A stretch of 64,000 nt of DNA from Gammaproteobacteria bacterium (GTDB taxonomy: Bacteria > Pseudomonadota > Gammaproteobacteria > SZUA-229), in assembly GCA_013041745.1 (NCBI GenBank), contig JABDRN010000031.1, positions 1 to 64,000 on the forward strand, in the 5' to 3' direction. This document shows, one piece after another, positions 14,783-45,434 of the stretch. Position 1 is the first letter of the stretch; each line of letters starts with the position of its first letter. A model generated the notes under the pieces. That model saw nothing but the letters and a program-made list of their open reading frames with translations, was not told the DNA's origin and did not search any database. The translations under genes and the position numbers were made by a program.

Positions 14783-17248
14783 ATGTTTCAACTGGCTGGC
14801 AATCGATCTGCTACACCGCCGCTGGTTTCTATATTTATCCTGTCCGCAGCCGCCCTGGCATATGAAGTTTTATTGATAAGACTGTTTTCGATCATTCACT
14901 GGCATCACTTTGCTTTCATGGTGATCAGTATTGCACTGCTCGGTTATGGCGCCAGCGGTAGTTTCATTACCGTATTCAGGCATAGGATGCTGAACAATTT
15001 TGATAGCGTATTTATTATTAATACCGTATTTTTCGGGCTTTCCGCCATTGCCTGTTTTATCGCCGTGCAGCAGCTGCCGTTCAATGCTCTTGAGATACTG
15101 TGGGATAGCTCACAGTGGCAACGACTATTATTAAGTTATCTACTGCTGACCCTGCCCTTTTTCTTTGTCGCCAATGCTATCGCGCTTACTCTGATGCGCT
15201 ATCATAACAAGATATCATTGGTTTATGGCGTCGATCTCATCGGTGCAGGTATAGGCGCGATACTGGTGATGTTATTACTGCAGTATTTTACCCCTGTTAC
15301 CATAATACGCGTTTTGGCTATCAGCGGAATTACCGCCGGTATTTTTGCGTTCCATAATCTGGCCGGCGTAAATAGAAAGTTATTCGCTACGCTGCTTTTA
15401 CTCAGTATGCTCGCTGTTTATCTGACACCGCATAAATGGCTTGATCTGCGTCCTTCCGAATATAAAGGGCTGACACAAACATTACAGATGAAGGAAGCTT
15501 CTCTGCTGTATTCACACAGCTCACCAGTATCACAGACCGATGTCGTACAGAGTCCATTTATACCGTTTCGTAATGCCCCTGGTATGAGCCTGCAAAGCGA
15601 GGCTAAAACACCCGAACAGCTGGCGGTATTCAGAGATGGCGGTGAGATGACCACCATCGATCATGTGACAGACATAAGCGCACTTGAGTATCATGATTTT
15701 TTGAGCTCAGCGCTGCCTTATCACTTGCATGATTCAGCAGAAAAGTTGTTGATACTTTCCTCGGCGACGGGTGCCGCGATATTACAGGCAGACTACCATG
15801 AGCTACCACAGATAGATGCGGTCGAGCCAGACGAGCAGCTGAGCCTGCTGATCACAGAGAGGTTTGCGGAGTATTTTGGCTGGCACAGGATAAAGCATAA
15901 GGTAGAAATTCATACTATTGCACCACGCGGCTTTGCCGCATCAGATAATGACTATGACCTGGTTGTAATGGGACCATCCGGTGCATCGGCTGGCGGTTCA
16001 GCTGGAGTGTATGCGCTTTCTACCTCCTATGATTACACCGTCGAAGCGCTGCAGTCCTATCTGGAGTTGCTGGCAGATGACGGTCTGCTGAGTATCACCA
16101 TGTGGACCAGTACACCAGAACGCGGCAACCTTAAATTGTTCACTACCGCAGTAGCAGCAATGAACAATACCGGCATTAGCGAACCGCAAAATAACATCGC
16201 ATGGATCAGAAGCTGGAATACTGCGACATTAATACTAAAGAAAACCGCATTAACAGCAGAACAGATCAAGCGGGTACGAGAATTCAGCCTATCTCGAAGT
16301 TTTGACCTGGCCTGGCTGCCCGGTATCACGCCGAATGATGTCAACCAGTTCCAGTTATTGCAGGAACCGGTGTTTTACCTTGCTGCTCGATCTGTGCTGC
16401 AACAGCAAAGCCCAGTCCCGGAATACAATTTTATCGAGCAGTATAAATTCGACATCAGGCCGACCACGGATAACAGGCCTTACTTCAACAATTTTTTCAT
16501 GTGGTCCAGCTTCGATGAGTTTCTTGCAATGCCGGGGCAAGCCGGTATATCGATGATAGGTGTAGGTTATCCGACACTGCTGTTCACCCTGGTGCAGGCA
16601 TCTATGGCAGCCGTCGTTTTGATACTACTGCCACTACTGTTGCTGCGCAGCGTGAAAGTAAAAACGGAGATAAAAAGAGAAGCTGGCAAGCGAAAAAATA
16701 TAGTTATCTACTTCATGGCGATTGGCCTGGCATTCCTCTTCATCGAGATCGCATTCATCCAGAAGTTCACCCTGATACTGAGTCAGCCGCTTTATGCGGT
16801 CGCGGTAGCACTCTGTGCCTTCCTGATCTTTTCTGGGTGCGGCAGTCTCTATGTACAACGACTCATGGAAACTGCAGAATCATCGGTCATTCCCGACTTA
16901 ATTCGCCGTTCGGTCATACTGATAGCGGTGATCGTTATTCTATATATTACCGTGTTGCCATCACTCAGCAGCACGATCATGGCGCTACCGGAAACGGTAA
17001 GGATTATTTCAGCTTTCATAATGGCAGCACCATTAGCCTTTGTCATGGGCATGCCGTTCCCTCTGGGCATGGCTGTGCTACAGCAGAACCATCCTCACCT
17101 CATGCCCTGGGCCTGGGGTATAAATGGTTGCGCCTCCGTATTAAGCGCGGTGCTGGCCGTTTTACTTGCGATGGAGATCGGTTTTAGCGGCATCATGTTA
17201 TGTGCAGTTATTCTCTACCTGATCGCATGGCGCAGTAACAGGATGTAG
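14783..17248 (+). CDS. Polytopic membrane protein with spermidine-synthase-like domain
   Basis: 821 residues in three parts. Residues 1-215 contain about seven transmembrane helices. Residues 290-470 resemble the Rossmann fold of spermidine synthases (IDAVEPDEQLSLLITERF, DYDLVVMGPSGASAGG, YTVEALQSYLELLADDGLLSI). Residues 595-820 contain further membrane helices (IGLAFLFIEIAFIQKFTLIL, FVMGMPFPLGMAVL). The glycine loop expected for SAM binding is altered (LILSSATGAAIL), so aminopropyl transfer is doubtful. Similar spermine-synthase-fold membrane proteins exist in many proteobacteria without assigned function. It lies 18 bp after pcm. Confidence 0.8.
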   Translation: MFQLAGNRSATPPLVSIFILSAAALAYEVLLIRLFSIIHWHHFAFMVISIALLGYGASGSFITVFRHRMLNNFDSVFIINTVFFGLSAIACFIAVQQLPFNALEILWDSSQWQRLLLSYLLLTLPFFFVANAIALTLMRYHNKISLVYGVDLIGAGIGAILVMLLLQYFTPVTIIRVLAISGITAGIFAFHNLAGVNRKLFATLLLLSMLAVYLTPHKWLDLRPSEYKGLTQTLQMKEASLLYSHSSPVSQTDVVQSPFIPFRNAPGMSLQSEAKTPEQLAVFRDGGEMTTIDHVTDISALEYHDFLSSALPYHLHDSAEKLLILSSATGAAILQADYHELPQIDAVEPDEQLSLLITERFAEYFGWHRIKHKVEIHTIAPRGFAASDNDYDLVVMGPSGASAGGSAGVYALSTSYDYTVEALQSYLELLADDGLLSITMWTSTPERGNLKLFTTAVAAMNNTGISEPQNNIAWIRSWNTATLILKKTALTAEQIKRVREFSLSRSFDLAWLPGITPNDVNQFQLLQEPVFYLAARSVLQQQSPVPEYNFIEQYKFDIRPTTDNRPYFNNFFMWSSFDEFLAMPGQAGISMIGVGYPTLLFTLVQASMAAVVLILLPLLLLRSVKVKTEIKREAGKRKNIVIYFMAIGLAFLFIEIAFIQKFTLILSQPLYAVAVALCAFLIFSGCGSLYVQRLMETAESSVIPDLIRRSVILIAVIVILYITVLPSLSSTIMALPETVRIISAFIMAAPLAFVMGMPFPLGMAVLQQNHPHLMPWAWGINGCASVLSAVLAVLLAMEIGFSGIMLCAVILYLIAWRSNRM

Positions 17249-42856: not shown

Positions 42857-43018
42857 GGACAGGATTACTCGGTCCAATACCCTCGCCTTCGGGTCATCAC
42901 AAAAAACGTGATGATCAAATCTGTTGCAGACAGATTTGTCGAACCGTTCGAACCCCGTCTACGTCAAGCTGTATGGTGTTAGATCGCTGCAGGTTGGTTG
43001 CTATATGAAATTTAATAA
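42857..43018 (-). repeat. 173-bp tRNA-linked repeat, distal (degenerate) copy
   Basis: From 42891 to 43018 this copy differs from its neighbour at only two positions (aaaaaa/agaaaa and gaacccc/gatcccc). Its far end, at 42857-42889, is diverged, and the tRNA-like tail is reduced to the aaacaggacaggatt region. The same two hairpins occur: TCATCAC/GTGATGA and CAAATCTGT-TGCAG-ACAGATTTG. Confidence 0.9.
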
Positions 43019-43191
43019 TGGCGGACCGGACGGGATTACTCGGGCATCCAGCCCTCGCCCTTCGGGTCATCACAGAAAACGTGATGATCAAATCTGTTGC
43101 AGACAGATTTGTCGAACCGTTCGATCCCCGTCTACGTCAAGCTGTATGGTGTTAGATCGCTGCAGGTTGGTTGCTATATGAAATTTAATAA
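43019..43191 (-). repeat. 173-bp tRNA-linked repeat, proximal copy
   Basis: The unit begins at 43019 with a 19-bp copy of the tRNA-Asp 3' end including CCA (tggcggaccggacgggatt on the plus strand), and the next such sequence is the real tRNA end at 43192, giving a 173-bp period. It would be transcribed after tRNA-Asp. It contains a 9-bp stem with 5-nt loop (about 43090-43112) and a 7-bp stem over an A-rich loop. A complete 19-bp tRNA-tail copy followed by repeat matches the layout of rtT repeats at E. coli tyrT. Confidence 0.9.
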
Positions 43192-43268
43192 TGGCGGACC
43201 GGACGGGATTCGAACCCGCGACCTCCGGCGTGACAGGCCGGCATTCTAACCAGCTGAACTACCGGTCC
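43192..43268 (-). tRNA. tRNA-Asp (GTC)
   Basis: 77 nt on the minus strand, with CCA encoded (43192-43194), discriminator G, acceptor GGACCGG pairing CCGGTCC, D-arm GTTC...GAAT, anticodon stem CCGGC/GCCGG with loop CTGTCAC (anticodon GTC), and T-arm GCGGG-TTCGAAT-CCCGT. All arms pair. It lies 19 bp after tRNA-Val in the same transcript. Confidence 0.97.
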
Positions 43269-43287: not shown

Positions 43288-43363
43288 TGGTGGGTGCTGA
43301 GGGAGTCGAACCCCCGACATTCGCCTTGTAAGGGCGACGCTCTACCAGCTGAGCTAAGCACCC
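43288..43363 (-). tRNA. tRNA-Val (TAC)
   Basis: 76 nt on the minus strand, CCA encoded (43288-43290), discriminator A, acceptor GGGTGCT/AGCACCC, D-arm GCTC..GAGC, anticodon stem CGCCC-type with loop CTTACAA (anticodon TAC), T-arm GGGGG-TTCGACT-CCCTC. First gene of the two-tRNA operon. Confidence 0.97.
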
Positions 43364-44195: not shown

Positions 44196-45434
44196 ATGAT
44201 CAAAAACATTCAGGATAAGACATTTACTATCGTACTGGCAGGTGGACGCGGCGCACGCCTGCAACCACTGACCGAGGAACGTACCAAACCGGCTGTCCCT
44301 TTCGCCGGTAAGTATCGGATCATCGATTTCACCTTATCTAACTGCCTGCATTCGGGTCTGCGCAGGATCCTGGTGTTAACACAGTATAAGTCACAGTCAC
44401 TGCAAGAGCACCTTAGAGATGGCTGGTCCATCCTCAATCCCGAACTCAACGAATATATCACCCCGGTTCCGCCACAGATGCGTACCGGTGAAAACTGGTA
44501 TGCCGGTACTGCCGACGCAATCTACCAGAACCTCAACCTGCTGGAAGAAAGCGGTGCCCAGTTCGTACTGATCCTTTCCGGCGACCACATCTATCGCATG
44601 GATTATGCCTCGATACTTGAGCACCATACCAAGCATAACGCAGCCGCCACCGTAGCCTGCATGGAGGTGGGACTGGAAGAAGCCCGTGGATTCGGCGTAC
44701 TGTCAGTCGACCAGGATAAAAAGATCCTGTCTTTCATCGAAAAACCGGACAACCCCCAGGGCCTGCCAGATAATCCCGACTGTACCCTGGCCTCGATGGG
44801 TATCTATGTCTTCAGCATGGAGGCACTACGGCGCGAGCTGAATATCGATTACGAAGACGATAACTCCAGCCATGACTTCGGCAAAGATATCCTGCCACGT
44901 ATGATCGGACAACAAGAGGTATTTGCTTTTCGATTTGGCTCACACGAAGGCCGTGTCTCCCAGGATCGTTACTGGAAAGATGTCGGTACCCTGGATGCCT
45001 ACTATGATGCGAATATGACCTTACTGGACCCGGTTCCGCCGCTGAATCTGTATCAGCGAGACTGGGCGATACGCAGCTATCTGCCGCAGAGCCCGCCTGC
45101 CCGCACCGTGCCAGGACCTGACGGACACGATGGCATTATCTATAATTCGTCTATCGCTGGCGGTACGGTGATCAATGGTGGTACCGTACGACACTCTATT
45201 CTTTCAGCCTGGGTCAAAGTCGAACATGCTGCCCTGGTCGAGGACTGTATCCTTTTCAACAACGTTACCGTCGGTTCCGGAGCAAAACTTAAGCGTTGTA
45301 TCGTTGATAAACATGTACGGATACCCGAGGGAGAAACCATCGGTTATGATCTTGAACGTGACAGACATCGTTTTACCGTGACAGATGATGGCGTCGTAGT
45401 CGTAGGACGACGTGTTACATTCGATAACGCCTGA
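44196..45434 (+). CDS. glgC: Glucose-1-phosphate adenylyltransferase (ADP-glucose pyrophosphorylase)
   Basis: 412 residues. First step of glycogen synthesis: ATP + glucose-1-phosphate to ADP-glucose. N-terminal nucleotidyltransferase (VLAGGRGARLQPLTEERTKPAVPFAGKYRIIDF, LILSGDHIYRMDY, ILSFIEKPDNPQG, YWKDVGTLDAYYDANM) and C-terminal left-handed beta helix (GTVINGGTVRHSILS, ALVEDCILFNNVTVGSGAKLKRCIVDKHVRIPEGETIG). No glgA/glgB/glgP genes adjoin it in this window. A clear spacer of 239 bp upstream should hold its promoter. Confidence 0.97.
   Translation: MIKNIQDKTFTIVLAGGRGARLQPLTEERTKPAVPFAGKYRIIDFTLSNCLHSGLRRILVLTQYKSQSLQEHLRDGWSILNPELNEYITPVPPQMRTGENWYAGTADAIYQNLNLLEESGAQFVLILSGDHIYRMDYASILEHHTKHNAAATVACMEVGLEEARGFGVLSVDQDKKILSFIEKPDNPQGLPDNPDCTLASMGIYVFSMEALRRELNIDYEDDNSSHDFGKDILPRMIGQQEVFAFRFGSHEGRVSQDRYWKDVGTLDAYYDANMTLLDPVPPLNLYQRDWAIRSYLPQSPPARTVPGPDGHDGIIYNSSIAGGTVINGGTVRHSILSAWVKVEHAALVEDCILFNNVTVGSGAKLKRCIVDKHVRIPEGETIGYDLERDRHRFTVTDDGVVVVGRRVTFDNA

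Follow-up and report, generated by a model that had tools for sequence, protein, structure and literature searches.

Tandem RtT/TLR units downstream of tRNA-Val and tRNA-Asp in a gammaproteobacterial genome: a putative processed small RNA with an imitation tRNA end

The window analysed here is the whole stretch of 64,000 nucleotides of a gammaproteobacterial genome (assembly GCA_013041745.1, contig JABDRN010000031.1, positions 1 to 64,000). On its minus strand two tRNA genes recognised by both ARAGORN and Rfam, tRNA-Val(UAC) at 43288-43363, the first gene of the putative transcript, and tRNA-Asp(GUC) at 43192-43268, are followed by two tandem units spaced 173 nt apart. Unit 1 (43191-43019, 173 nt) is intact and begins with the base next to the CCA of tRNA-Asp, on the same strand, which is the location characteristic of a tRNA-linked repeat (TLR), the name given to RtT elements in E. 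coli; unit 2 runs from 43018 to about 42848. The underlying direct repeat D1 (42886-43037 against 43059-43210) extends over 152 nt at 99% identity. Unit 1 is closed by a 19-nt tail at 43019-43037, TGGCGGACCGGACGGGATT on the plus strand, an exact copy of the 3' end of its parent tRNA-Asp (43192-43210) with CCA included, that is 19/19 positions where TLR tails have 18-19 bp. Unit 2 is near-identical to unit 1 in its upstream part and decayed in P5/P6 and in the tail, where 12/19 positions are retained (AATCCTGTCCTGTTTACTG vs AATCCCGTCCGGTCCGCCA) without CCA, and one base is deleted within the conserved CCCGAAGGGC hairpin. The window repeat also holds a 9-bp hairpin (CAAATCTGT-CTGCA-ACAGATTTG, 43089-43111) and a 7-bp one (TCATCAC/GTGATGA). 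The order of tRNAs and repeats, the 19-bp copy, the near-identity of the units and both stems had been described in an earlier sequence-only reading of this DNA, and all of them were borne out. No terminator was found within the window unit or after the two units. An open reading frame resembling glgC (ADP-glucose pyrophosphorylase; 44196-45434, plus strand) begins 0.8 kb away from the two tRNA genes; glgC is a CsrA target in E. coli, and this vicinity is likely a coincidence.

Knowledge of TLRs in E. coli dates back to 1978. Both window units align over the full length of the Rfam family RtT (RF00391), with 30.2 bits for unit 1 (43147-43019) and 22.5 bits for unit 2, below the gathering score of 45. 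This score is a database cut-off and not a biological feature: among 54 genomes of the same taxonomic family RF00391 matched 33, with 4 above the cut-off, and all 54 carry the core. A second covariance model, R1, was built from 26 aligned cores of relatives obtained by BLAST and Rfam; it spans GGTTC to GTAAT and excludes the tRNA tail and the 5' strand of the closing stem P1. With one window core in its training set, R1 gives 77.4 bits and E = 5e-22 for unit 1 (4.8e-22 over the core at 43035-43118) and 60.2 bits and E = 1e-16 for unit 2 (core at 42864-42945), values that place the window repeat far beyond chance. The same model recovers 4/4 units of E. coli K-12 tyrT, the annotated rttR included, at 32.6-45.7 bits, and the window element is therefore homologous to rtT and no independent case. 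A convergent origin of the Asp version was ruled out by the homology of its core to E. coli rtT, evident with RF00391 and with R1. The resemblance to tyrT repeats that the sequence-only reading had pointed out thus proved to be real homology. Its second suggestion, that a tRNA-Asp counterpart would stand as an independent case, failed on two counts, as in relatives members of this family are also found behind tRNA-Gln, Val, Pro, Arg, Ser, Tyr, Glu and Lys and behind tmRNA, and a cognate tail of 18-19 bp is the published hallmark of the 22 E. coli TLRs (PMC8144298). The comparison with the Rfam RtT model and the search for the repeat after tRNA-Asp elsewhere, both proposed in that reading, gave divided answers: the model matched both units in full and at scores under the cut-off, and the repeat was present in some genomes and missing at many Val-Asp loci. 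On the whole the earlier interpretation is partly supported.

The minus-strand core of unit 1 comprises GGUUCGA, the hairpins P3, P4, P5 (CCCGAAGGG) and P6, and the ending GAGUAAU. The P3 hairpin (43089-43111, 9 bp) has the loop CUGCA, the usual CNGGA being lost. The predicted P1 5' strand, GACGGGGAU at 43124-43132, is complementary to the tail segment AUCCCGUC. In the alignment of 26 cores the stems P3, P4, P5 and P6 show many compensatory changes. Among 207 distinct cores the paired columns read in the tRNA sense contain 124 G-U against 41 A-C cells, in an alignment fitted to the model; this excess favours a function of the transcribed strand, apparently as RNA and not as DNA. Two observations count against the reading preferred below: the minimum free energy of unit 1 surpasses that of shuffled sequences by no more than a moderate margin (z -2.5), and P1 of the model is not formed exactly in the corresponding fold. 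A terminator-like hairpin lies between tRNA and element in 23/81 related elements, an arrangement comparable to that between the rrnB terminators of E. coli.

The family is by no means restricted to this locus. R1 matches were obtained in 54/54 genomes of the taxonomic family, in 125/276 genomes of the class and in 67/299 genomes of a phylum sample, which outside the class is mostly empty save for one family (f183); in that family, of the same phylum (G335-G468), the core occurs in many genomes. The genome of the window contains about 26 cores. Two belong to tRNA-Asp; others accompany the genes for tRNA-Gln, Pro-TGG, Pro-GGG, Ser and Phe and for tmRNA, or are dispersed. One of them (L176, C14:90751-90836) lies downstream of tmRNA (ssrA) and bears the cognate tail ATTCCCGCCATCTCCACCA. 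The dispersed cores away from tRNAs (L178-L182, L186, L188, L190, L193) are parts of larger repeats, whose shared flanks span 500-700 bp and are 80-87% identical. For tRNA-linked cores of the family, the nearest core lies by the same tRNA type in another genome in 33/56 cases and by another type in the same genome in 4/56, and tRNA-linked copies are therefore considered to be mostly inherited in place. Recent spread within genomes was tried as the main process and found unsupported, because the closest counterpart of a core mostly sat in a different genome, at a tRNA of the same type. At the Val-Asp locus the element is present in G000, G004, G006, G008, G010, G017, G020 and G034 and absent at many others; as the tRNA-Asp-linked TLR is missing at the Val-Asp loci of most relatives and unit 2 is decayed, the window copy is dispensable, a further point against the reading preferred below. 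Contigs of metagenome-derived genomes (MAG) frequently end at TLR elements, and short-read assemblies therefore probably under-report TLRs and neighbours such as csrA.

Two properties outside the core, the tail and the P1 5' strand, were examined in tests independent of R1, which contains neither; the loci were picked from the best-scoring matches, and the percentages cover those and not all copies. Where a same-strand tRNA ends at most 130 nt upstream of a core, the tail agrees with it at 15/19 positions or more in 79/101 cases and at 19/19 in 62/101, non-cognate tails reaching 10.6 matches on average and 16 at maximum. When the tails of 16 gene types are compared as partners of the P1 5' strand, the cognate one is predicted to pair best in 40/81 elements, where 5.1 would be expected, and the predicted pairing energy of this strand averages -16.0 kcal/mol with cognate vs -11.3 kcal/mol with non-cognate tails. 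Such pairs are exemplified by Val (GCGCGAGUGGAU with AUCCACUCGCGC), Tyr (GGGGGAGGAU with AUCCUCCCCC), Gln (CGGCAGGAU with AUCCUGCCG) and Asp (L101; GGACGGGGUU with AUCCCGUCC), and where the T-loop of the tRNA has GGUUCAA for GGUUCGA the element mirrors this variant (L086, L091, L102). These figures come from the 5' flank only, since a scan of the whole element (19/34) also takes in the conserved core. P1 is formed in the minimum free energy fold of only 48/81 related elements, which again speaks against the preferred reading. Gene conversion could keep tails alike and does not rewrite a separate complementary strand, so that P1 looks maintained.

The position of the core is equally regular. 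In tRNA-linked copies it follows GGTTCGA and precedes AATCC, which are the two halves of the tRNA T-loop. In 19 mirror cases the left flank is instead the 5' half of a tRNA, intact or nearly so and mostly 100% identical, with the core in the T-loop; these copies, for example L199, L202, L257, L200, L219, L261 and L292, are followed downstream by an intact tRNA of matching type, have an altered acceptor 3' end and are devoid of CCA. As examples exist in single-contig genomes (G327, G126), they are no assembly artefacts. In a further type, found at tRNA-Ser in 11 cases, the core follows a copy of the tRNA 5' end through the D-loop. The genome of the window has D-loop-type cores upstream of real tRNA-Ser genes (L171, C28:19895-19986; L173, C35:18648 and 18826). 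It also has two inverted cores downstream of tRNA-Phe (L174, C92:15543-15625 and 15717-15798), beside which the 3' tail of tRNA-Phe persists on the tRNA strand. No published description of the 5'-half, D-loop or inverted forms was found in the RtT/TLR literature compared.

CsrA sites are characterised by a GGA within the loop of a hairpin. Among the 207 cores the P3 loop carries GGA in 189, mostly as CNGGA, and the P6 loop in 178, mostly as A(N)GGA, as compared with 1 for P4 and 16 for P5; both P3 and P6 have it in 166/207, at a median spacing of 50 nt, although R1 was trained on GGA-bearing cores and some ascertainment bias in these counts follows. P6 loops of the CAGGAUG type occur in relatives. 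Unit 1 of the window has CUGCA in P3 and UGGAU in P6, that is one GGA loop in place of several, and the units had no Rfam match to the CsrB, CsrC, RsmY and RsmZ families. The window copy is probably a weak or decaying binder of CsrA, and the case for CsrA titration by it is weak; in relatives the partner of TLRs is likely, in most cases, CsrA through the P3 and P6 loops. The genome of the window encodes csrA (C35:18327-18482). A csrA gene lies directly upstream of a TLR in this genome (C35:18648) and in G025, G033, G006, G004 and G005, probably owing to the conserved gene order csrA / tRNA-Ser / tRNA-Arg, which is also the order in E. coli; the vicinity would be intriguing if TLRs bind CsrA.

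From these observations it is considered fairly probable that the two units are RtT/TLR members of the tRNA-Val/tRNA-Asp transcription unit, processed to a small RNA with an imitation tRNA end. The units would be transcribed together with both tRNAs, and each would fold into a closed RNA with several hairpins. In the closing stem P1, the 3' strand would be the copy of the T-stem 3' strand, the acceptor 3' strand and CCA of the tRNA, the 5' strand would be rebuilt to pair with this copied tail, and hairpins P2-P6 would occupy the place of the T-loop. Such an imitation acceptor/T-stem end might be cut like a tRNA 3' end, a mechanism proposed for E. coli rrB, and release of the units by tRNA-processing enzymes is plausible. 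A discrete species, about 173 nt long and with CCA at its 3' end, would thereby be freed in an amount proportional to tRNA transcription, and in most relatives it may bind CsrA through the GGA loops of P3 and P6. At the level of sequence comparison, direct support is available for the homology to rtT, for structural conservation, for the cognate tail, for covariation of the closing strand with the parent tRNA and for a bias of base pairing towards the tRNA strand, and the window element is most likely a processed small RNA with a tail that imitates a tRNA 3'-processing site.

Several other readings of the same features have to be weighed. The units might act as a CsrA-titrating small RNA, a kind of minimal CsrB produced in proportion to tRNA transcription, with two GGA hairpins about 50 nt apart in each core and multiplied by tandem cores and units. 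The 166/207 cores with both loops class-wide, in the CNGGA and A(N)GGA forms, the CAGGAUG-type P6 loops, the presence of csrA in the genome and the binding of CsrA by E. coli rrB via GGA motifs (PMC8144298) all speak for it, yet the window copy has one GGA loop left per unit, the tRNA-linked TLRs of E. coli lack such loops, perturbation of rrB has modest effects (PMC8144298), and training of R1 on GGA cores leaves a bias even with 26 seeds taken from BLAST and Rfam. We regard this function as possible, somewhat short of even chances; it is compatible with a processed small RNA and could sit atop it without excluding it. A neutral or selfish dispersed structured repeat, some copies of which were trapped by tRNAs and kept their cognate tails by unequal crossing-over and gene conversion and not by function, would account for the same-genome dispersed cores off tRNAs with their common flank (500-700 bp, 80-87% identity), for identical scattered copies in G160 and G272, for the patchy occurrence at tRNA-Asp and for a tandem whose second unit is decayed. 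It is nevertheless unlikely, because gene conversion explains the tail and not the covariation of the P1 5' strand, which lies apart from that tail, the stems covary with an RNA-strand G-U bias while loops are conserved, and tRNA-linked copies are mainly inherited in place.

The fixed insertion point between GGTTCGA and AATCC, the mirror copies with exact 5' halves upstream of intact tRNAs, the D-loop type at tRNA-Ser and an inverted core at tRNA-Phe bring to mind site-specific integration, in which a tiny element carrying the tRNA 3' half (downstream) or 5' half (upstream) makes the tRNA whole again and, like a genomic island, leaves a direct repeat behind. That the units are relics of this process is quite improbable, since the P1 5' strand would be left unexplained and inheritance is mostly vertical; a non-systematic look revealed no linked recombinase. 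Least probable of all, and only slightly credible, is a cis element on the tRNA precursor, whose P1 5' strand, complementary to the T-arm and acceptor 3' strand of the parent, could disturb or time tRNA folding or end transcription. The antisense strand is indeed cognate, also for tRNAs with CAA in the T-loop (L086, L091, L102), and terminator-like hairpins precede 23/81 related elements, but the element's own tail competes for the P1 5' strand and the window unit is without a terminator.

The RtT/TLR kind and the cognate-tail rule were already known, and by sequence the window element is a member. What is added is the breadth of the core, tails matching the tRNA together with a covarying closing strand, the fixed T-loop position with its mirror copies, and GGA loops in P3 and P6, each in about 90% of cores. 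The broad family, which is widespread among Gammaproteobacteria and usually has two hairpins resembling CsrA sites, supplies the missing comparative material, namely a covariation-backed structure, a closing stem that tracks each parent tRNA, an exact T-loop site with its 5' mirror forms, and GGA loops whose conservation points to CsrA; the question of TLR function is thereby directly testable. A wider proposal is that beyond enterics TLRs are class-wide CsrA-binding modules in imitation tRNA ends, with a two-GGA core set into the T-loop site of an incomplete tRNA, which is a 3' half in downstream elements, a 5' half in upstream ones, or of the D-loop type, and CsrA-sequestering RNAs would be freed by tRNA transcription and processing; in this full form it is doubtful.

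The nearest known relative is E. coli rtT (rttR, RF00391) of the tyrT operon, which likewise stands after a tRNA as tandem units of about 175 bp with a 19-nt copy of the tRNA 3' end, and shares the P1/GA/GGUUCGA frame, the CCCGAAGGG hairpin and GAGUAAUCC ahead of the tail; rttR terminates at the tail. In RtT a tandem GA motif is supported by covariation (PMC7657543), and members near Asn and Lys tRNAs were described in Actinobacillus (PMC4986893). The window units differ in having Asp and not Tyr as parent, a longer, A/T-rich P3 and a P6 loop with GGA, and in scoring under the Rfam cut-off. E. coli possesses 22 TLRs at ten loci, each closing at its 3' end with 18-19 bp that match the preceding tRNA or rRNA exactly, and the repeated tail was proposed as an RNase E processing signal (PMC8144298). 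For the tyrT member, a part in the recovery of starved cells (stringent response) was reported and later withdrawn, leaving TLRs without known function (PMC8144298), and such a function was dropped here for that reason. The three members after 5S rRNA, rrA, rrB and rrF, bind Hfq and CsrA in vitro; rrB does so for CsrA through GGA motifs, is processed just past its tail, and causes modest effects only when deleted or overexpressed (PMC8144298). With these TLRs the window element has in common the cognate tail, the siting in stable-RNA transcripts and, as a family, the GGA loops seen in rrA, rrB and rrF (PMC8144298). It is unlike them in its association with tRNA-Asp and in its host, which is of a different gammaproteobacterial family, in that tRNA-linked members of relatives have GGA loops too, and in the 5'-half, D-loop, tmRNA-linked and inverted forms of relatives, whereas the 19 tRNA-linked TLRs of E. 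coli are without P3/P6 GGA loops and were predicted not to bind CsrA (PMC8144298), a point against the preferred reading. The 3'ETS-leuZ sponge RNA is similarly a functional by-product of a tRNA precursor (PMC8144298), but is not a repeat, has no tRNA-tail copy and acts through base pairing. CsrB, CsrC, RsmY and RsmZ also present GGA in hairpin loops, which the CAGGAUG-type P6 loops of relatives resemble; unlike them, a TLR unit has no more than two GGA hairpins, of which the window copy has a single one, and resides within tRNA transcripts.
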